Assembly: GCA_020050835.1 (NCBI GenBank)
Contig: JAGVKB010000070.1
Coordinates: 1-38,542 of the forward strand
Origin: Candidatus Obscuribacterales bacterium
Lineage (GTDB): Bacteria; Cyanobacteriota; Vampirovibrionia; Obscuribacterales; Obscuribacteraceae
Direction: 5' to 3'
DNA length: 38,542 nt
Numbering within the stretch: position 1 is the first letter of the stretch; the number at the start of each line of letters is the position of its first letter. Under the pieces are notes generated by a model. That model ran no database searches, was not told the DNA's origin, and worked only from the letters and a program-made list of their open reading frames with translations. This document shows positions 1,926-25,916 of the stretch, in pieces. The translations under genes were made by a program, and so were the position numbers.

Positions 1926-1947
1926 TATTTGGTTTTGCTGAAAAAAT

Positions 1948-2306
1948 TGAAGTAACGCATAAGCCGGGTTCTATATTCGACTGTCATCTCTCTGGGAGCT
2001 CGATTACTCGAGCGCTCTAGCAGCATCAGCACCTTGAGATGGCGGGCCACCACTTCCTCAAGATATACCTTAGCCTTGCACCTTCAGCGGGGTTTACCTA
2101 GCCAAAGCCTCTCGACTTTGCTGGTGACGCTCTTACCGCACCGTTGCACCCTTACCCGGTCAGTCCCTTGCGGGATTGAGGCGGGCGGTTTTCATTTCTG
2201 TGGCACTATCCTCACGCTCACGCGCACTGGGAATTACCCAGCAACCAGCCCTGCGGTGCCCGGACTTTCCTCATCCTTTCGGACGCGACAGTCCGCGTTA
2301 CTTCAA
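1948..2306 (-). ncRNA. rnpB: RNase P RNA (bacterial type A)
   Basis: Catalytic RNA of RNase P, which cleaves 5' leaders from pre-tRNA. The minus strand shows the conserved blocks in order: the 5' strand GAAGTAACGCGGACTG, then GAGGAAAGTCCGGGC (P4 5' part), ACAGAA, AGGGTGCAACGGTGCGGTAAGAGC split over the specificity-domain region, and near the 3' end ATAGAACCCGGCTTA (P4 3' part). The ends are complementary (TTGAAGTAACGC at the 5' end against GCGTTACTTC at the 3' end), giving helix P1 and fixing the limits within a few bases. The length of about 359 nt is normal. A TATAAT box lies 7 nt upstream. Confidence 0.97.
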
Positions 2307-16054: not shown

Positions 16055-17929
16055 ATGAAGACCAACGAAACTCTCGTGTACCGATTCTGGTCTCACGTTT
16101 TCAACACTCCCGACAAGCCCGGTGCTCTGATCAAGGACAACGCCTACCGGTACGACCCTGTCGGCTGGCTCCACCGCGACAAGAAGGAAGCTGAAGGCAA
16201 GTACTTCCCGATCGGTTGGGCGCAGTGCGGAGAACGAGTCGCGACCATCATGACCTTGCTCAGCCGCTCGGGCTGCAAGCAGGGTGACCGTGTAGCCATC
16301 CTGGCTTGGAACTCTCCGGAATGGGTCTGGTGCAATCTGGCCATTCAAAGCCTCGGCGCCACCACCGTGCCGATTTACCCGAACACGGCTGCCGAACAGG
16401 TCAATGAGCTGTTGGCCGACTCCGGTGCCTCGTTCATCATCTGCGACGACAAGGAGCAGAGCGACAAGGTGCGCGCCGACAGCCCGGTCAAAACGCTGTC
16501 TTTCGCCGACATCGATCCGCCGGCGCTGCTCACCAAGGGCTTCACCACCAATGACGAGCAGAAGTTCTGGACGCAGCGCAGCAACCGGCTCGAGAGCATC
16601 AAGAGCGAGCTGGCCAAAGGTCCGGAAGGATTCCTCGGAATCGACCCGAACGAACTGGCGAACTTCATCTACACCTCAGGCTCGACCGGTCGGCCAAAGG
16701 GCGTGATGATGAGCCACGGCAACATCGCCAGCGCCTGTGCTTCGCTCGGCCGCCACGGCTTGACGCTCTCGCCCAATGATGTCGCGTTGTCTTACCTACC
16801 GGCCGCACACGTCTACGAATTCGTCGACGGGCAGGCTGTCTGCATCTGGTACGGCGTGCCGGCGGCCTACTGCAAGACCGCTGACATGGCCGGCGAACTC
16901 CAGAAGGTGCGACCGACCATTCTGCTGGGCGTACCGGCCGTCTGGCGGAAGATGAAGGACAAGATCCAGAGCCAGCTCGACAGCGCCACCGGTGTGAAGA
17001 AGCTGGCTGTCAAGCTGGCTTTCGCCAACATTCCGCTGCTGTCGACTCTGGCCGGACTGCTCGTCTTCAAGACGATTCGAGCCGGGCTCGGGGGCAACCT
17101 GCGTCTTCTGATGTCGGGTGGCGCGCCGATCTCCAAGGACATTCTGGAGTTCTTCGGCCGCGTCGGTCTGCCGCTGCGCGAAGGCTACGGGCTGTCGGAG
17201 ACCGCCGGCGCGCTGTCGCTCAACACGCTCTCGGAGAACGTCTACGGCACGGTCGGCACGGTGCTCGACTGCTGCGAAGTGCGGATCGTTGCCCTCGAAG
17301 GCGCTGAAGATGCCGAATCCGGAGAAATCTGGGTGCGCGGCGACATCGTCTTCAAGGGCTACTGGAACATGCCCGAAGAGACTGCTAAGGCGATCACCGA
17401 CGATGGCTGGTTCAAGACCGGCGATCTCGGAAAGTTCGTCACCATCGGCGGCAAGCAGTTCCTCAAGATCACCGGTCGCAAGAAGCGGCTGCTCAAGACC
17501 GACGGCGGCAAGTACGTCGCCCCCGAGAAGATCGAGAAGGCCTTCGACGGTGAACCGTTGATCGGTTTCATCGTGCCGGTCGGCGACGGCAAGCCTTACA
17601 TCTCGGCGCTCGTCTTCGTAAACGAGATGACCTGCCAAGATCTTCTGAAGGCCAAGGGCATCGCACTGCCAGCCGGCACCACGGTGGCCGAGCAGTACGG
17701 CAGGCAGCCGGAAGTGAAAAAGACAATCGACGCCGCCCTCGATGCCGCGAAAAACGAGCGCAACGGCTCGCTCGAGCACTGGGAAACGGTCAAGTACCTG
17801 GTGATCGTTCCGCAGGAAGCGACGGTCGCCAACGGGCTTCTGACCGCCACTCTCAAGATCCGCACCGAAGAGGTGCTCAAGCGCTACAAGGATCTGATCG
17901 AGAGCATCTACAGCTCCAACAAGCGCTAG
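16055..17929 (+). CDS. fadD: Long-chain acyl-CoA synthetase (AMP-binding)
   Basis: 624 aa after GGAGGAAAGGT. It adenylates free fatty acids with ATP and transfers them to CoA, the entry step of beta-oxidation. The AMP-binding P-loop YTSGSTGRPKG lies at 207-217, the aromatic/adenine motif YGLSET at 378-383, and the hinge region GDLGKF...GRKKRLLKTDGGKYVAP follows near 460-490. The linker GGKYVAPEKIE and overall length match the long-chain (FAA/FadD15) branch rather than short-chain synthetases. Codon use is strongly G/C-ending, like the lipase and fadAB genes across the spacer. A 14-bp stem-loop follows the stop. Confidence 0.93.
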   Translation: MKTNETLVYRFWSHVFNTPDKPGALIKDNAYRYDPVGWLHRDKKEAEGKYFPIGWAQCGERVATIMTLLSRSGCKQGDRVAILAWNSPEWVWCNLAIQSLGATTVPIYPNTAAEQVNELLADSGASFIICDDKEQSDKVRADSPVKTLSFADIDPPALLTKGFTTNDEQKFWTQRSNRLESIKSELAKGPEGFLGIDPNELANFIYTSGSTGRPKGVMMSHGNIASACASLGRHGLTLSPNDVALSYLPAAHVYEFVDGQAVCIWYGVPAAYCKTADMAGELQKVRPTILLGVPAVWRKMKDKIQSQLDSATGVKKLAVKLAFANIPLLSTLAGLLVFKTIRAGLGGNLRLLMSGGAPISKDILEFFGRVGLPLREGYGLSETAGALSLNTLSENVYGTVGTVLDCCEVRIVALEGAEDAESGEIWVRGDIVFKGYWNMPEETAKAITDDGWFKTGDLGKFVTIGGKQFLKITGRKKRLLKTDGGKYVAPEKIEKAFDGEPLIGFIVPVGDGKPYISALVFVNEMTCQDLLKAKGIALPAGTTVAEQYGRQPEVKKTIDAALDAAKNERNGSLEHWETVKYLVIVPQEATVANGLLTATLKIRTEEVLKRYKDLIESIYSSNKR

Positions 17930-18681: not shown

Positions 18682-19029
18682 ATGGTACGCAAAGGACTCT
18701 TGTTTTTGGCAGCTCTGCTCGTCGCATCATCAGTCGGATTCTTGTCTAGTAATGTCGATGCGAAAACAGATAAGAAGTGGACGATTACCGAGCGCTCTGA
18801 AGCTTTGAAAAAGGAAGTCGACGCGGGTCAAAAGGCCGGCGAGCTCACCGCCAAAGAGAGTGAGTCGCTTAAAGAGCAAGCAGGCAAGATCGACGCCAAG
18901 ATAGTCAAGATGAAATCAAAGAACGACGGGAAGCTCTCCTACGACAACGAGAACAGCCTGGAAAAGGATCTCAATAAACTGAGCCTGCGCATTCAAAAAT
19001 TAAAGCTGGAGAAGCGCGTTCAAAAGTAA
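18682..19029 (+). CDS. Small secreted helical protein
   Basis: 115 aa from ATG 18682, 9 nt after GGAGG. A signal peptide (MVRKGLLFLAALLVASSVGF, cleaved near VDA) precedes an almost wholly charged alpha-helical domain rich in Lys and Glu. It contains a duplicated pattern: GELTAKESESLKEQAGKID and GKLSYDNENSLEKDLNKLS. Such G-x-L-[ST]...E..L repeats are frequent in small periplasmic proteins of unknown function. It should be a soluble helical hairpin outside the cytoplasmic membrane. It stands alone between a terminator and the cobalamin riboswitch. Confidence 0.8.
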   Translation: MVRKGLLFLAALLVASSVGFLSSNVDAKTDKKWTITERSEALKKEVDAGQKAGELTAKESESLKEQAGKIDAKIVKMKSKNDGKLSYDNENSLEKDLNKLSLRIQKLKLEKRVQK

Positions 19030-19147
19030 CCGGCAATGCCGATCTTAAGAGAATGACGTACAGTCTGGCTACTGGGGTCCGTCCGATCGAACAGTTAAAC
19101 CAAGCCAGATAAGCCAGGCTTCACATCCGGCCGCTGGACAATTGAGT

Positions 19148-19318
19148 TCAGCGGTGGTAAGTTCATTCGGCGCGCGGTTGCTCCGATTTGCTGCCGCGCA
19201 CCGCTAGGGATCGAGCTTCGGCTCGATTTGCTGGGGGAAGTGTGGTGAAACTCCACCGCTGTCCCGCAACTGTAAGCAGCTAACGCTGCGAGTCAGAGTA
19301 CCCGCCCCGAGCGCTCAC
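19148..19318 (+). promoter_or_regulatory. Cobalamin riboswitch
   Basis: The conserved core is readable: GGGGGAAGTGTGGTGAAACT, then CCACCGCTGTCCCGCAACTGTAAGC, then the B12 box AGTCAGAGTACCCGCC at about 19291-19306. Upstream arms GCGGTG/CACCGC and GCGCGG/CCGCGC form the long P2-type stem. Binding of a cobalamin normally shuts off the downstream gene. The expression platform is a large hairpin (19342-19390) that shares two bases with an intrinsic terminator (19389-19418), so control is probably at transcription elongation. The next gene is an amino-acid-oxidase-like enzyme, not a known B12 gene. Confidence 0.92.
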
Positions 19319-19388
19319 AACACATCCTCTTCGAGGCAAAGAGAGATGCTATAGCCATTGCAGCTCAGCCCGCAATGGATCAGCATTT

Positions 19389-19418
19389 CTCCTGGCTCAT
19401 AAGAACCAGGAGTTTTTT
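19389..19418 (+). terminator. Terminator in the riboswitch expression platform
   Basis: CTCCTGG and CCAGGAG form a 7-bp stem followed by six T. A preceding stem (AGAGATGCT...CCATTGC / GCAATGG...AGCATTTCT, 19342-19390) overlaps its 5' arm by two bases and may compete with it. Confidence 0.88.
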
Positions 19419-19870
19419 ATCGGCAGATAATCACAATCCTTAGAGATTCGTGCCGCAGGAAATTTCATTTTGCACCACATACAGTGGCAGATTCATTCTG
19501 TCCACTTTTTCTTTTTTGTACTGGACAATCGGCTGAAATGTACATCAACAGGGCATTTCAACATTCCAAGATGAATCAACCGCGCTAGCCGATGATCGCA
19601 AAAAAGACTGCCGGGCATTTGTAATCAGATCAAAGTTATCGCTAAAGTGGCAATCATCCCTTTAGATCTTTCAATTCGAGAAGTCACTCAAGAACTCACC
19701 TGCAATCCTTTCAGCAACCGCTAATAGCCAACTCGAGAAAGCATCATCCGGCGCTCGTTGAAGTTGGCCTCTCGGGATTGTTCGACCTCGTTGCCTGCCT
19801 GTGGCGGACAGCCAGCCAGACTGTACCGATTGAGCGTCTGCCTGATTTGATTCTGGAGACTGGAGAACTT
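19419..19870 (+). other. Leader between riboswitch terminator and oxidase gene
   Basis: About 450 nt without a supported gene; only a 16-codon frame at 19538 without ribosome site. The dyad TGTAC...GTACA (about 19515-19543) is visible. Either readthrough of the riboswitch or an internal promoter must express the next gene. Confidence 0.5.
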
Positions 19871-20839
19871 ATGAGCAACAAAAACATTCTCGTCCTGGGA
19901 GCAGGTGTGAGCGGGCTTACCACTGCCCTCAAACTCCTGGAGTCCGGGCACAAAGTCACCATCTGGTCGAAAGACCCAGCTGGCGAATCGCCAGCCACCT
20001 CCTTCAATGCTTATGCATTTTGGTTGCCTGTAAAGTCCGACCAGGACCTGCGCGTCGAGCGCTGGGCAAACGAGACTTATGCTGCCTTCGAGCAGCTCGC
20101 GCGCAACACCAGCAGCGGTGTCGTAATGCGCAAAGTTTTCGAGCTAAAGGTCTCGCAAGAGGAGCCCTGGTACGGACAGAAGCTGCCCTTCTTCCGGCAC
20201 GCTGCGCCCAACGAGGTGACCAACCAGTACAAGGACGCGCACATCCTGGACAGCGCGCCAGTAATCGATCCAGTTGTCTATCTGCCCTGGTTGCGAAGCA
20301 AGGTAGCCGCTTACGGTGCGATTTTCGCTCAAAAGGAGGTTTCGTCGCTGTCCGAATGCCCGGCCGAATTCGAGCTGATCGTCAACTGCACGGCGCTCGG
20401 CGCCCGACAACTGCTCGGCGACCAGGAGCTCTACCCGGCCAGACTGCAGGTGTTGAAGCTGAAGCATAACGGCTTCGATCAGGTTGTCTTCGACAGCGAA
20501 GGTCCAAACAAGCTGTGCTGCGTCGTTCCGCAGTCGGACTACATCAAAGTCGGAGCGGTCTACGATGAGCGCAACGAGTCGATGGAGGTCGATGACGAAG
20601 TCACCGCCGGCATTCTGGATCGCGTAACCAAGATGATCCCGGGCTTCAAAGCAGACCCCCAGGACGTCCTGAGCGTCACCCGCTGCTTGCGCCCCAAACG
20701 TGCCGCCACCAGGGTCGAACCGGAGAAGCTCGCCGACGGACGCTGGGTCGTTCACAACTACGGCCACAACGACACCGGCTATATCATCTCCTTCGGAGTG
20801 GCAGCCGAAGTCGCCGGGTATGCCGTCACTCTACAGTAG
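19871..20839 (+). CDS. FAD-dependent D-amino-acid-oxidase-like enzyme
   Basis: 322 aa from ATG 19871 with GGAGA 6 nt upstream; a longer frame from 19778 adds residues before the FAD strand that do not fit. The N-terminus NILVLGAGVSGLTTA is the FAD-binding Rossmann motif (GAGVSG at 9-14). Near the C-terminus CLRPKRAATRVE and HNYGHNDTGYIISFGVA match the substrate-arginine and FAD loops of D-amino-acid/D-aspartate oxidases. It should oxidatively deaminate an amino acid or related amine to a keto acid, ammonia and peroxide; substrate unknown. It is first of three genes behind the cobalamin riboswitch. Confidence 0.88.
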   Translation: MSNKNILVLGAGVSGLTTALKLLESGHKVTIWSKDPAGESPATSFNAYAFWLPVKSDQDLRVERWANETYAAFEQLARNTSSGVVMRKVFELKVSQEEPWYGQKLPFFRHAAPNEVTNQYKDAHILDSAPVIDPVVYLPWLRSKVAAYGAIFAQKEVSSLSECPAEFELIVNCTALGARQLLGDQELYPARLQVLKLKHNGFDQVVFDSEGPNKLCCVVPQSDYIKVGAVYDERNESMEVDDEVTAGILDRVTKMIPGFKADPQDVLSVTRCLRPKRAATRVEPEKLADGRWVVHNYGHNDTGYIISFGVAAEVAGYAVTLQ

Positions 20840-20906
20840 CGAGGATTCGATTCGGCAGCATCTTCCGCTGGCAACCCCAACCTCAATCAGAAGAATTGGA
20901 GCGGAC

Positions 20907-21425
20907 GTGAGCGTAAAGATTCGACCAGCCGTTGAGGCTGACCTTGAGCAGATCGCCCGCGTCAACCACGAAAGCTGGCAACATGTTTGCCAGGGTCGAG
21001 TGGAACAACGCTACCTGGACGCCTTCACGCTCGGGCAGTGCTTGTCTAACTGGCAATCACGCTTCGAGCAGCTAAAGGCGAAGTCCGAAATGCTGCTGGT
21101 CGCCGAGCGCAACAGCCTGATCACCGGCTTTTGCTATCACGGCCCCAACCGAGACAACGATGCCTGCGCGCCACCAACCGGTCAGATCTACTTGCTCTAT
21201 CTGAGCACTGATGCTATCGGAACCGGCACGGGAACCGCGCTTTTCAAGGCCGCACTGCTGGAGCTGTCCGCAAACGGCTTCGAACAAGCAACGCTCTGGG
21301 TGCTGGTTCTCAACGAACGCGCCCGCCAGTTTTACTCTCGTCACGGCTTTTCTCCAGACAACCGCACCGATCTCGACGAGCGCACCGGCAGCGCCCGCAT
21401 GCGCTACCGCCGCCTGCTGCCCTAA
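20907..21425 (+). CDS. GNAT-family N-acetyltransferase
   Basis: 172 aa from GTG 20907, 5 nt after GGAG. IRPAVEADLEQIARVNHESW is the typical beta1-alpha1 of the GNAT fold. A central strand IYLLYLST precedes the acetyl-CoA pyrophosphate loop IGTGTGTALF (about 110-119), an R/Q-x-x-G-x-G/A variant. WVLVLNERARQFYSRHGF is the conserved closing motif. It transfers acetyl from acetyl-CoA to an amine of a small molecule or protein. The gene starts 67 nt after the oxidase and ends 52 nt before the next gene, so the three are probably one operon. Confidence 0.88.
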   Translation: MSVKIRPAVEADLEQIARVNHESWQHVCQGRVEQRYLDAFTLGQCLSNWQSRFEQLKAKSEMLLVAERNSLITGFCYHGPNRDNDACAPPTGQIYLLYLSTDAIGTGTGTALFKAALLELSANGFEQATLWVLVLNERARQFYSRHGFSPDNRTDLDERTGSARMRYRRLLP

Positions 21426-21477
21426 GCGATCTGTGCGCCGACATCGCCTGAATTTCAGGTGTACAGGAGTACTACCA

Positions 21478-22065
21478 ATGAACACCCCCAATTCGCCTTC
21501 CCTGCCGAAGGTCGTTTACGAGCCCGGCATGGGCACGCTGGAAGTTTTCTCGCTCGACACCTCCGAGCAGTTCCTCTACAAGCTCTTGAAAGATCTGTTC
21601 GAGAATCACTGGTCCGAGGTGCAATTCGGCATCTTGATCCAGGGCTCGGTGCTCGAACTCTCCGCCCCGCAAAAGCCGGAGAAGGTGGCGTTGTTCGACG
21701 GTTACTTGACCGTCGAGTTCGGGCAGTGGCATCACATGCACGTCTGCCTCGGTGAAAGCGTCGGCACCGGCTGCGAGCCGACGCCGCCCGAAGTCACCGC
21801 TCACCGCCGTCCGGCCCGAGCCGAACTGTACCGCAAGCTCAACAAGCAAGGTCAGCCGACCTTCTGGGCTTTCCGCCTGTTCAACACCAAGGACGAACAG
21901 CTGTTGACCATTTTCCTGCCCAATCCGCTCCTGACGAAGGAGATGCAGTACCAGAAGGAGCCGGACTGGTCGCGCCTGGCGATCTGGGACTACCTGCGCA
22001 AGACCTACCTGGGACTCGAGCCAGATCCCAAAGATCGCACCGCCGGCAAGTTCAGCCACGACTAA
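21478..22065 (+). CDS. Conserved-looking 195-aa protein, unknown function
   Basis: 195 aa from ATG 21478, 9 nt after AGGAG. It is soluble, without signal peptide. Visible marks are VYEPGMGTLEVFSLDTSEQF (N-terminus), FGILIQGSVLELSAP, a central GQWHHMHVCLGES with two adjacent His, a further His and a Cys (possible metal site), and WSRLAIWDYLRKTYLGLEP near the end. I do not recognise a named family. It is the last gene of the riboswitch-preceded group, with a strong stem-loop behind it. Confidence 0.82.
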   Translation: MNTPNSPSLPKVVYEPGMGTLEVFSLDTSEQFLYKLLKDLFENHWSEVQFGILIQGSVLELSAPQKPEKVALFDGYLTVEFGQWHHMHVCLGESVGTGCEPTPPEVTAHRRPARAELYRKLNKQGQPTFWAFRLFNTKDEQLLTIFLPNPLLTKEMQYQKEPDWSRLAIWDYLRKTYLGLEPDPKDRTAGKFSHD

Positions 22066-22087
22066 GCCTGACTTTCGCTAAGTGAAC

Positions 22088-22131
22088 CCGGCGAGCCGCC
22101 GTAAGACCAACTCTTACGTGCGGCTCGCCGG
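22088..22131 (+). terminator. Very stable stem-loop ending the 19871-22065 operon
   Basis: CCGGCGAGCCGC (22088-22099) pairs with GCGGCTCGCCGG (22120-22131), continued by GTAAGA/TCTTAC over a 5-nt loop, with one bulged base. It lies 23 nt past the stop. No U-tract. Confidence 0.65.
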
Positions 22132-22228
22132 CTCTCACCGACGGCAGTTGAGGCTGAGCAGCAGATGCCTCAAGATCTTTTCTGTTGCGATTTTCACTAA
22201 TCTCTATAGTGTCTAGACAGCAAAAAGC

Positions 22229-22269
22229 ACCAGGAGAAAAGTCAGCTCTTTAGCAGCTTTTCTCCTGGT
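22229..22269 (-). terminator. Intrinsic terminator of the transporter gene
   Basis: ACCAGGAGAAAAG and CTTTTCTCCTGGT pair perfectly (13 bp, 15-nt loop). On the minus strand GCTTTTTG follows, and the stop at 22326 lies 57 nt upstream. Confidence 0.78.
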
Positions 22270-22325
22270 CGAGAGTCGCTAGTCTTTGCCGCCCAACCAA
22301 GCTTCGCGGGTCCATCGCCTGGAGC

Positions 22326-23600
22326 CTACGATTGAGACCGACCATCGTCTTGCGAACCGGTGGTCTCTTTCTTAGCCAGACGCAAGATGCCGATGCACAA
22401 CAGATTGGTGAGCGTAAACAGCGCCGCCGCCCAAAGCAATGGCGCCAGCTGGCTGTCAAAGACATGGACGTAAAGAATCGAGCCTAGATTGGATGAGACC
22501 TGGCTGGACAAGGTGCCGATCGACATCCAGAGCGAATAGGTAAAACCCTCAGAGCCTTCCGGACAGTACTCGGCCGCCAGGGTCAGCGAGGCAACGGTAG
22601 CAGCCGAGGAGACTACTCCAGCAAACAGATTTACCAGAATAGCGCTGGTTGAACCATGCAGCCCCAGATAGGAAAGCGTGCCCAGTGTCGCGAACACAAC
22701 TCCCAGCTTGAGCAGTCCGGTCAGATCAAACCGCTTAGCGAGCCAGGAATAGCCGACGGTTCCAGCGATCGCGCCGAGATACCAGACGGCGTGCAGAAAG
22801 CCGATGAAATCCTGACGAAAGTGCAGCTCGTCGGTCATGTGGTAGTAAAGCGGTGTGTAGAAAGCCGGATGCAGGTAATAGAAGAAGAGGAAGGCGGCCA
22901 CCACCCAGAAATTCCGGGATGACAGCGCCTTTTTGAGCTTCATTCCATCGCTCTTGAGCGTCGACAGGTCGACTTTCGACTTCGGCTCGTCGATCAACAA
23001 CCAGGCCCCAAGCATTACCACCAGCGGCGCGAAAGCAACAACGAAGGCGGAGACGTGAAAGGCTCGGTCAGGCGCGAACACCTGCGAAAGCCAGCCACCG
23101 GCCAGAGCGGTTGCCGCTGCCGCAACGCTGTACCACATCCACTGCTGGTTGAGAAAGACCCCGCTCAGCCCGCCCTTGCCGCTCTCAATCGTCAATGCAC
23201 CAGATACGGTGCTGGAGACAGCCATACCCAATGAGATCAGCATGAGACCAATTAGAATCTCACCCGGCTCATTCAGTCCGGTCAACCAGAAGTAAGCTAC
23301 AGCAGCCAGTCCGTTGGCCAGGATCAGGTACGACTTGCGACGATATCCAAAAACCGGCAGGAAATCGGAGAGCAGCCCGTACAACGGTCTTACCAACCAG
23401 GGAATCATCAAGGCGGAGAGATACTGGGTGATCCGGTCGGGAGCCCAGCCATAAACCGACTTCAGGTAATAGCTGAGCGGCTGCTGAATCAACCCGTTGG
23501 CGTCGCCCAATCCGTCAGCAAGGTTGAGAATCGCAAAAAAGAGGATCAGCCTGCGAATTTTGTCCTGCGCGCCACCGGATAACTGTGGAGAACCCGTCAT
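22326..23600 (-). CDS. MFS transporter of the BT1 (folate/biopterin) type
   Basis: 424 aa with about 12 hydrophobic segments, start preceded by GGAG at 7 nt. IPWLVRPLYGLLSD and FGYRRKSYLIL (about 66-95) match the BT1/FBT signature IPW..KPLYG.LSD....G.RR..Y, and the N-terminal QQPLSYYLK is also typical. FBT proteins import folates, biopterins or S-adenosylmethionine in plants, protists and cyanobacteria; other members are of unknown substrate. So transport of a pterin-like or other organic solute into the cell is a reasonable guess. The gene is a single unit with its own terminator, divergent from the GMC oxidoreductase. Confidence 0.85.
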   Translation of the reverse strand: MTGSPQLSGGAQDKIRRLILFFAILNLADGLGDANGLIQQPLSYYLKSVYGWAPDRITQYLSALMIPWLVRPLYGLLSDFLPVFGYRRKSYLILANGLAAVAYFWLTGLNEPGEILIGLMLISLGMAVSSTVSGALTIESGKGGLSGVFLNQQWMWYSVAAAATALAGGWLSQVFAPDRAFHVSAFVVAFAPLVVMLGAWLLIDEPKSKVDLSTLKSDGMKLKKALSSRNFWVVAAFLFFYYLHPAFYTPLYYHMTDELHFRQDFIGFLHAVWYLGAIAGTVGYSWLAKRFDLTGLLKLGVVFATLGTLSYLGLHGSTSAILVNLFAGVVSSAATVASLTLAAEYCPEGSEGFTYSLWMSIGTLSSQVSSNLGSILYVHVFDSQLAPLLWAAALFTLTNLLCIGILRLAKKETTGSQDDGRSQS

Positions 23601-24326
23601 GCGTTGACTCCGTTGAAGGCGCCGAAAGTGCGAGGTCTATGAATTCGAGAGATAATTCGAATCGCGCTTTCGACTGGTCAATGAATGTGAGGAGCTTGTG
23701 AAAGACGAGCGACAAGCCGGCTTCCGTCCTCCCCGTGCTAGTTAAGCGACTCAAGCGAATGCCACCAGCGAGTACACACACTCGGCTGGGTAAGCCGGTT
23801 GTGATTTAGTTGCTGGTCAAGATCGGTTAGTCGAGCAGATGTCCCTGTTACAGAGTCGCTTAATTACATAAATGCAAATCAACCTAGCGAATAGCTCGAA
23901 GCAGATTCAAGATTGCCGGCATTGTTTTTCCAGAGCAATAAATGACCTGGCTCTCAGATTCACCCACAAACTCATCGATACGGACTCGCTGCGCTAACGC
24001 TGCGAGTGGTAAGTGGCAGCAAATTAGATAACTTCAATATGTCAGGTTGCTCCGCGAAATCCTTATCCACTAGGTTTACGAGTGTACTTCTACTCAATAG
24101 ACAATCAGCCGGGATTTAGATCGCTCCAAACTGCTGACAGTTGACCATCACAAACGACTGCTTGGGAATCTGACCGATCCTCCGAGTTGTTAGAGCAGTT
24201 TCGCACCGGCATTAATTGCAAAAAACCAGCTCGCAACCTGCACCACAGGTAGTGGCACTTGCGAGCGTCTTTTCACAAGCAAATTTCCGCGCGGTTCGAA
24301 TCGCATTCGGGCCGGGGGAGGTAAAC
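23601..24326. other. Divergent intergenic region, nothing specific seen
   Basis: 726 bp between the transporter and the GMC oxidoreductase. AT content is higher than in the genes. I see no supported gene, RNA or repeat, and no promoter with both hexamers in register. Confidence 0.5.
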
Positions 24327-25916
24327 ATGGCAGACAAATTTGATTATGTAGTTGTCGGCTCTGGCTTCGGAGGCGGCACCGCGGCGCTTCGCCTTGCGCA
24401 AGCAGGCAAACGCGTCTGCGTGCTCGAGCGCGGTCGACGATGGCATGGAAAGAACCTGCCACCGGCACCAGGCGAAAAGCCCGCTTCAGCATTTCCAGAA
24501 CTTGGCGACACCAGCTTCTTCTGGGGCCGCCAGCTCTGGCGACCGACCAGGCAACGACTCGGACTCTACGAAATGAAGCAGATGATCAACCTGCAAGGGC
24601 TCGTCGGAGCAGGAGTAGGAGGCGGTTCCTTGATCTGGGCCAATGTGGTTGTGAAAGCTCCAGACTGGGTTTTCGAAAAGAACTGGCCAAAGGACATCAA
24701 CCGCCGGACGCTCGATTCTTACTATCACCGGGCCGATCCCTACCTGCGGCCCAAACTGATTCCGGGCATAGCGACCCAGATCAACTCCGGCGACGGCAAA
24801 TACAATCATCGCGCCGAAGCGCTCAGACTGTCCGCCGAAAAGGTAGGCCGCCCCTGGCGTCCTGTGCCGCTGGCCGTCAACTTCGGCGACCAGACAAACG
24901 CCCAACCAAACGGTCACGGCAACGCCAGACAGCTCGGTTGCAATCTGTGCGGGTTATGCACGGCAGGTTGCCCGCAAGGGGCCAAAAACACCGTCGACAA
25001 AACCTACATTGCCGAAGCCGAAGCGCTCGGTGCCGAGGTCTGGCCGCTTCATCTGGCGACCGGAATTGAGCCGACCGAAGGTGGCTATCGCGTTCATTTC
25101 AAGCGCTTCAACTTGGATGGTACGGTGGCCGAGACCGGATGTGTAGAAGCGAAACGGGTTGTTCTTTCAGCCGGCACGTTCGGTTCGACCGAACTGCTCT
25201 TGAATTGCCGTAAGAACGGCCTGCTGCCCAATTTGAGCAAGGCGCTCGGCACACGCTTCAGCATCAACGGAAACGTTTTGGGGGGAGCGCTCGCGGTCGG
25301 AAAGGCGAACGCACCGGTCAACACGAATTCCGGCCCGGCGATCGCCTCGATGATCGATTACGGTCGCTTCGCAATTGAGGATATCGCCAATCCAACCTGG
25401 ACCGCCGGCATTGTCGGAGAGACAAACATCAAACGCATAATTGCGTTCACACTGGCCCTTACCGGTTACAAACAAACCGCCAAAGTCTCGGCTCAAGCAG
25501 CTCGTGATCTCCTGCTCTACGTAGGTGTCGGCGACGACGGCGCGCGCGGACGGCTCGTGTTGAACAAACTCGGGCTGCTCGGTCTCAAATGGCCGGGCGG
25601 CATCAGTCGCGAGCCCGGGATTCAAGCGCTGCACAAAGCGATGGCGGAGCTCGCCAAGGCCCAGGGTCGCCGCTATGTTCCCAACGCAATGTCGATCTTC
25701 AACCGGCCGGTGACATATCACCCACTGGGAGGCTGTCCGATGGCAGATACCGTTGAAACCGGTGTGGTTGACTCCTACGGAAGAGTTTTCGGCTATCCCG
25801 GACTCTTCATCGCCGACGGCTCAGTCGTGCCGACTGCGCTGGGAAGCAACCCGTCCTACACAATCGCCGCACTGGCTGAGCGGATTGCCGAACGGCTGGC
25901 AAAGGAGCTTGACTGA
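24327..25916 (+). CDS. GMC-family oxidoreductase, cholesterol-oxidase-like
   Basis: 529 aa from ATG 24327 behind GGGGGAGG; 37 in-frame residues further upstream precede the FAD motif and lack a ribosome site. FAD binding: DYVVVGSGFGGGTAALRLA (GSGFGGG at 11-17) and the GMC signature GAGVGGGSLIWANV (94-107). The C-terminal HPLGGCPM and GLFIADGSVVPTALGSNPS hold the catalytic His/Asn pair region. A Cys cluster C-x2-C-x2-C-x3-C (205, 208, 211, 215) resembles the Fe-S-like motif of one clade of cholesterol/alcohol oxidoreductases. It should oxidise a hydrophobic alcohol such as a sterol, hopanoid or long-chain alcohol. No signal peptide. Confidence 0.88.
   Translation: MADKFDYVVVGSGFGGGTAALRLAQAGKRVCVLERGRRWHGKNLPPAPGEKPASAFPELGDTSFFWGRQLWRPTRQRLGLYEMKQMINLQGLVGAGVGGGSLIWANVVVKAPDWVFEKNWPKDINRRTLDSYYHRADPYLRPKLIPGIATQINSGDGKYNHRAEALRLSAEKVGRPWRPVPLAVNFGDQTNAQPNGHGNARQLGCNLCGLCTAGCPQGAKNTVDKTYIAEAEALGAEVWPLHLATGIEPTEGGYRVHFKRFNLDGTVAETGCVEAKRVVLSAGTFGSTELLLNCRKNGLLPNLSKALGTRFSINGNVLGGALAVGKANAPVNTNSGPAIASMIDYGRFAIEDIANPTWTAGIVGETNIKRIIAFTLALTGYKQTAKVSAQAARDLLLYVGVGDDGARGRLVLNKLGLLGLKWPGGISREPGIQALHKAMAELAKAQGRRYVPNAMSIFNRPVTYHPLGGCPMADTVETGVVDSYGRVFGYPGLFIADGSVVPTALGSNPSYTIAALAERIAERLAKELD

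Follow-up and report, generated by a model that had tools for sequence, protein, structure and literature searches.

Organization of the locus

The window analysed here, a stretch of 38,542 nucleotides from a Candidatus Obscuribacterales bacterium (JAGVKB010000070.1, contig 84 of a 7.0-Mb genome), contains a cobalamin (vitamin B12) riboswitch followed on the same strand by three genes, which code for a D-amino-acid-oxidase (DAAO)-like flavoprotein, a GNAT acetyltransferase and a protein of the family DUF7676 (Table 1). The genes are separated by 67 bp (oxidase-GNAT) and 52 bp (GNAT-DUF7676). An initial annotation had recognized the aptamer, a competing hairpin and a terminator in front of an operon composed of an oxidase-like gene, a GNAT and a protein of unknown function, and family and folding searches bore out all of these elements. 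It had also described the operon as having no known B12 role, which did not hold: the third gene, noted for its WHHMHVCLG motif, belongs to DUF7676 (PF24724; 219 bits against a cut-off of 27, E 2.7e-65), a family that elsewhere is mostly found in cobalamin-riboswitch operons beside BtuB-like and BtuFCD-like genes. The riboswitch itself is ordinary, and the operon represents a known B12 regulon in a new arrangement, showing that an operon whose first gene seems unrelated to B12 can still belong to it.

Table 1. Features of the riboswitch-operon region, with positions in the window.
Feature	Position	Strand	Details	Basis
Cobalamin riboswitch aptamer	19160-19323	+	Rfam match 19191-19323; P2 arms 19166-19170 / 19307-19311	RF00174
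P13-like hairpin CATCCTCTTCGAGGCAAAGAGAGATG	19323-19347	+		Comparison of ~27 family riboswitches
Antiterminator helix	19341-19391	+	19341-19349 / 19383-19391, around hairpin 19356-19361 / 19372-19377	Folding
Intrinsic terminator	19389-19418	+	Stem 19389-19395 / 19406-19412, U6 19413-19418	Folding
Second terminator-like hairpin and U-tract	19484-19516	+	-10.5 kcal/mol; no known ligand control	Folding
DAAO-like flavin adenine dinucleotide (FAD) oxidoreductase	19871-20839	+		PF01266
GNAT acetyltransferase	20907-21425	+	GTG start	Family search
DUF7676 protein, candidate corrinoid or cobalt carrier	21478-22065	+	HxHxC at H86/H88/C90	PF24724
Strong hairpin 3' of DUF7676, likely operon end	22080-22140	+	-41.5 kcal/mol	Folding
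BT1-family major facilitator superfamily (MFS) transporter	22326-23600	-	Convergent neighbour	Family search

The riboswitch and its expression platform

The aptamer matches the Rfam covariance model with 44.2 bits (gathering cut-off 31.5, E 4.6e-8). The 5' arm of P2 was found by hand upstream of the Rfam span, where UUCGG pairs with CCGAG, so that the aptamer reaches back to ~19160 and the whole element covers ~19160-19418; the base changes in P2 between the window (UUCGG/CCGAG) and its relatives (UUCAG/CUGAA) are compatible with pairing. The cobalamin riboswitches of this clade share a conserved element, CCTCTTCGAGGCAAGGAGG, whose form in the window is the P13-like hairpin. The 3' half of this hairpin is the antiterminator strand, and its stretch 19341-19349 therefore has two partners, one within the hairpin and the other at 19383-19391. 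The second pairing builds an antiterminator of 9 bp (hairpin of -23.7 kcal/mol) that overlaps the 5' arm of the terminator (-13.1 kcal/mol), making both structures mutually exclusive. The same platform is present in most family relatives. In most of those that have a terminator, and nearly always where it follows closely, the predicted partner of its 5' arm is this same upstream strand. Judged from its sequence, the element is a transcription-terminating cobalamin riboswitch with a ligand-exchangeable platform, and we infer that it responds to its ligand.

In a comparison of L005, L008 and L012 with the window and others, the P13-like hairpin has a conserved GGAGG strand that seems to act as a Shine-Dalgarno sequence just before an ATG in some relatives and as an antiterminator strand in others; translational and transcriptional control would thus be built on one platform.

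DUF7676 and cobalamin riboswitches

Linkage was assessed in 37 further DUF7676 loci, picked by the protein alone (10 from species genomes, 20 from cyanobacteria and 7 from plasmids). A cobalamin riboswitch above the gathering score was found in 26 of them, in every case on the strand of the gene and 1.7-3.8 kb ahead of it, a range that includes the 2.15 kb measured in the window; by comparison, the whole 7-Mb genome of the window holds three such riboswitches. These loci are not all independent, the cyanobacterial genome set alone supplying 18 of the 26, and, among the 11 without riboswitch, the Rhodospira locus offers just 1.5 kb of upstream sequence. The association is nevertheless met again in Roseospira, Azospirillum, Paracoccus, Methylocella, Diaphorobacter, Rhodococcus and an Obscuribacterales relative; overall, the loci with a riboswitch come from Cyanobacteria, Alpha- and Betaproteobacteria and Actinobacteria.

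The usual gene order behind the riboswitch is TonB receptor, DUF7676, BtuF-like binding protein, permease and ATPase, often with a DUF1636 gene in first place. In the two receptors tested the best match was TonB-B12, below its curated cut-off. In Rhodococcus the order is riboswitch, substrate-binding protein, permease, ATPase, FhuF_C [2Fe-2S] protein and DUF7676, and in the Obscuribacterales relative (G011) the riboswitch precedes a 267-aa open reading frame (ORF), a 152-aa [2Fe-2S]-like ORF and DUF7676; the 267-aa ORF (L060 2342-3145, minus strand) lies directly behind the riboswitch terminator and has no Pfam match. A DUF1636 search of the window's own genome gave no match, but since the control genomes gave no signal either, this does not demonstrate that the gene is absent.

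One such operon has been studied experimentally. In Anabaena sp. PCC 7120, alr4027-btuB2-alr4030-btuFCD is transcribed as one unit controlled by a cobalamin riboswitch, its expression is low in the presence of cobalt, and alr4027 is induced about 100-fold without it (PMC10878165). Mutants in btuB2 and btuD take up cobalamin more slowly, and the authors report that uptake depends on BtuB2, TonB3 and BtuD; for alr4030 a likeness to ferredoxin was recorded, but no name was given (PMC10878165). On a Trichormus plasmid, an operon of the same order has a DUF7676 gene in the alr4030 slot; this gene order and the ferredoxin similarity suggest that alr4030 codes for a DUF7676 protein.

Predicted fold, HxHxC motif and putative redox partners of DUF7676

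The HxHxC motif is present in all 37 full-length DUF7676 sequences, that of the window included. An AlphaFold2 model built from the window protein and 10 relatives (predicted local distance difference test (pLDDT) 89, predicted TM-score (pTM) 0.85) gave significant Foldseek matches in the PDB only to ChuX, HutX, HemS, PhuS and ChuS (probability 1.00, E from 2.6e-5). With the Roseospira protein as lead sequence, a second model (pLDDT 84) matched only the same ChuX/HutX/HemS-type structures (probability ~1.0); it counts as a partial replicate because both alignments share members. Sequence-level proof of this kinship with haem carriers was sought and not obtained: the window protein has no PF06228 match in Pfam, PDB sequence searches found nothing, and hhalign against cyanobacterial ChuX_HutX, which aligns equivalent strands, gave weak scores with both the small and the larger alignments.

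In addition, DUF7676 is fused to or lies beside a [2Fe-2S] protein in cyanobacteria and actinobacteria. The 20 cyanobacterial DUF7676 proteins all reach a length of at least ~290 aa, and the copies inspected have a [2Fe-2S] thioredoxin-like part at the C-terminus; the gene adjoining DUF7676 in Rhodococcus and Streptomyces codes for an FhuF_C [2Fe-2S] protein. The stand-alone [2Fe-2S]-like ORF of the Obscuribacterales relative has weak Pfam scores, and its cysteines align with those of the cyanobacterial domain.

The oxidase, the GNAT and the B12 regulon

The flavoprotein (PF01266, 101.9 bits; best PDB match the D-amino-acid oxidase 7ct4) has the DAAO fold with its FAD site. In DAAO, Y224 and Y228 (human numbering) are active-site tyrosines and an arginine binds the substrate carboxylate; this arginine is kept in the flavoprotein, with the RPxR arginine aligned, and N and C stand in place of the tyrosines. 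Its closest relatives (49-62% identity, one in its own genome) lie beside [2Fe-2S] ferredoxin-like genes in the own-genome, G034, G011 and G026 copies, and also beside BT1 transporters and NicO-like genes. BT1-like genes flank one other DUF7676 locus as well, and a BT1 gene adjoins the window operon. Taken together, these neighbours are a weak hint that the oxidase has its place in the same metal/corrinoid surroundings. Loci L064 (own genome, contig 73: 231000-246000), L065, L066 and L068, where oxidase relatives stand with [2Fe-2S] thioredoxin-like, BT1-family MFS and NicO-like genes, possibly form a second metal/corrinoid cluster; the NicO-like assignment in L064 was made by eye and has no Pfam match. 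For the GNAT, 49 other genomes of the family offer no orthologue (best identity 34%), and it was discarded as a conserved operon member. The oxidase and the GNAT are thus local additions to the operon.

The genome contains three cobalamin riboswitches in ~7 Mb, including that of the window. One of the other two precedes a NicO-like gene and CobN (weak Pfam matches), with CbiJ on the same strand ~15 kb further along, and the other precedes nrdA. This organism therefore probably makes B12; its genome also encodes a MetH-type domain. In relatives, according to their translations, the riboswitches precede nrdA, metE, CobN, cobalamin-synthesis and cbiM-like genes and a methylcitrate-type operon.

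The initial annotation had suggested a B12-independent route. The presence of cobalamin riboswitches of this clade before genes of B12-independent isozymes (nrdA, metE, the methylcitrate-type operon) would favour the idea that, under B12 scarcity, the oxidase bypasses a B12-dependent catabolic step, for example that of D-ornithine or lysine aminomutase, and the conserved carboxylate arginine would fit it as well. The two replaced tyrosines speak against such an enzyme, as does the fact that the oxidase follows a riboswitch only here, its relatives lying beside [2Fe-2S] and NicO-like genes without one. No positive evidence for a B12-independent route was obtained, and we regard this bypass as very improbable. 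The same annotation had named a B12 gene between aptamer and oxidase in related genomes, a sign of a local deletion, as evidence against its reading: no such gene was found there in relatives, and 0/6 of the oxidase-relative loci examined has any riboswitch.

Two side observations concern the clade's riboswitches. In L006 one of them stands before ORFs that, by reading, resemble methylisocitrate lyase and citrate/methylcitrate synthase, plausibly a B12-independent propionate route. In L007, L008, L012, L018, L025 and L028 a short ORF behind the cobalamin riboswitch resembles, also by reading, a hotdog acyl-CoA thioesterase, which in L018 stands before metE; we know of no B12 role for such an ORF.

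Proposed function and coupling to the riboswitch

To our knowledge, little is understood of how imported B12 passes in bacteria from BtuCD to the enzymes of the cytoplasm and how its upper ligand is taken off, tasks for which humans use CblC. Because DUF7676 is found in B12-uptake operons and has a haem-carrier-like predicted fold, it may fill this gap as the protein that handles imported B12 inside the cell, and it is a concrete, testable candidate, being tagged by a riboswitch and provided with a built-in or neighbouring [2Fe-2S] partner. Such a role would give meaning to this domain so far without a function, and also to the unnamed Anabaena gene alr4030. The reading that we favour, and consider somewhat probable, is that B12 scarcity induces DUF7676, a cytoplasmic component of corrinoid or cobalt carriage or reduction, through a cobalamin-repressed termination riboswitch, its function being deduced from context and fold. 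At high cobamide levels, the ligand-bound aptamer would favour the P13-like hairpin, removing the antiterminator strand, and transcription would stop at 19418; at low levels, the antiterminator would form and the three genes would be transcribed. DUF7676 would be the functional heart of the operon, a cytoplasmic protein of ChuX/HutX/HemS fold that could bind a corrinoid, or cobalt obtained from it, via HxHxC. Together with a [2Fe-2S] reductase protein, it could take over corrinoids, whether incoming or recycled, and reduce or strip them. The partner in this genome is probably encoded elsewhere, for instance beside the contig 73 paralogue of the oxidase. A cofactor-salvage step, one of several options in the initial annotation, agrees with this proposal.

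Several facts weigh against it. The window operon holds none of the BtuB, BtuFCD or [2Fe-2S] genes, the first two forming the uptake operon present in most other DUF7676 loci, and the oxidase and the GNAT are not linked to DUF7676 elsewhere. The Foldseek TM-scores are moderate (mostly 0.41-0.48), and the hhalign probability is 8% (E 0.0045; control 0.76). A literature search gave no binding, expression or phenotype data for DUF7676 alone.

Some DUF7676 copies without riboswitch adjoin cobalt functions, and because of them its ligand may be cobalt rather than a corrin: one lies directly behind a NicO Co/Ni transporter, and in a Nitrosomonas metagenome-assembled genome (L079) another lies behind CobW, a GTPase, nitrile hydratase beta and alpha (with CTLCSC, a Co-type motif) and an accessory gene, a non-corrin cobalt context. 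DUF7676 would then be a cytoplasmic cobalt chaperone or reductase, or would release the cobalt of imported corrinoids, and its expression would set in when B12, and hence cobalt, is short. Proteins that degrade haem to release its metal are found among the HemS/ChuS relatives. The likeness of HxHxC to a metal site, the NicO-like genes beside the oxidase relatives and the induction of the Anabaena operon by cobalt starvation (PMC10878165) agree with this. Most DUF7676 copies, however, accompany corrinoid-type receptors and importers under cobalamin riboswitches, and the predicted fold is that of tetrapyrrole binders. We consider a role confined to cobalt unlikely. A further DUF7676 protein, 56% identical to that of the window, was noted in a record titled Cryomorphaceae bacterium (L072) with BT1-like and CobW neighbours; this record may be a mislabelled Obscuribacterales bin.

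The coupling of riboswitch and operon can only be inferred, because the second terminator-like hairpin precedes the oxidase, within a gap of ~450 bp that also counts against the proposal. The riboswitch could instead yield a short RNA ending at 19418 (or ~19516), with the operon transcribed from its own promoter in the gap, which is unusually long and has no match in relatives; a short regulatory RNA was also among the options of the initial annotation. Only a short distance separates the terminator from the first ORF in the Obscuribacterales relative. Against such uncoupling, no sigma-70-like promoter match was found in 18900-22400 (promoters of this clade may differ from the sigma-70 consensus), DUF7676 stands at the usual distance from the riboswitch, and we know of no RNA target for the putative short RNA. 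Terminator-like sites number 4 in the region by pattern scan, about equal to the 3.3 of shuffled sequences. On balance, uncoupling appears improbable, and transcription dependent on B12 scarcity would read through past 19516. A gene remnant in 19426-19875 was also sought and rejected: blastn matched this segment to none of the loci of relatives, and it contains no noteworthy open frame.

Elsewhere in the window are found a bacterial RNase P RNA of class A (1945-2304, minus strand; 232 bits), an acyl-CoA ligase-like gene (16055-17929) and a GMC oxidoreductase (24216-25916), whose best match is the cholesterol oxidase family, below cut-off.

Comparison with known systems

The cytoplasmic haem carriers ChuX/HutX/HemS/PhuS (PF06228/HemS) resemble DUF7676 in predicted fold, in their operons with TonB receptors and ATP-binding cassette importers and in their presumed cytoplasmic location, although DUF7676 lacks a PF06228 match and differs in its cobalamin riboswitch, BtuB/BtuFCD-like neighbours, HxHxC motif and [2Fe-2S] partner. 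More broadly, DUF7676 could be a widespread and hitherto unassigned cytoplasmic B12 counterpart of these carriers, recruited from the same fold, which together with [2Fe-2S] proteins would reduce, decyanate or dechelate imported corrinoids under riboswitch control across cyanobacteria, Obscuribacterales, proteobacteria and actinobacteria, a generalization that we put forward tentatively, as slightly more apt to fail than to hold. The role proposed for DUF7676 resembles that of the decyanating proteins CblC (MMACHC) and BtuM, namely to accept imported B12 and take off its upper ligand, possibly with Cys/His coordination; BtuM uses a Cys ligand (PMC6072759). In contrast, their folds are unrelated to the one predicted for DUF7676, and BtuM is a membrane protein. 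FhuF-type [2Fe-2S] siderophore reductases correspond to the partner encoded beside DUF7676 in Rhodococcus and Streptomyces, and not to DUF7676 itself, and are absent from the window. The closest system is the Anabaena alr4027-btuB2-alr4030-btuFCD operon, where, as in the window, a cobalamin riboswitch controls an operon with what appears to be a DUF7676-type gene; the window operon differs in lacking btuB, btuFCD and DUF1636, in having a DUF7676 that is not fused to a [2Fe-2S] part, and in carrying an oxidase and a GNAT instead.

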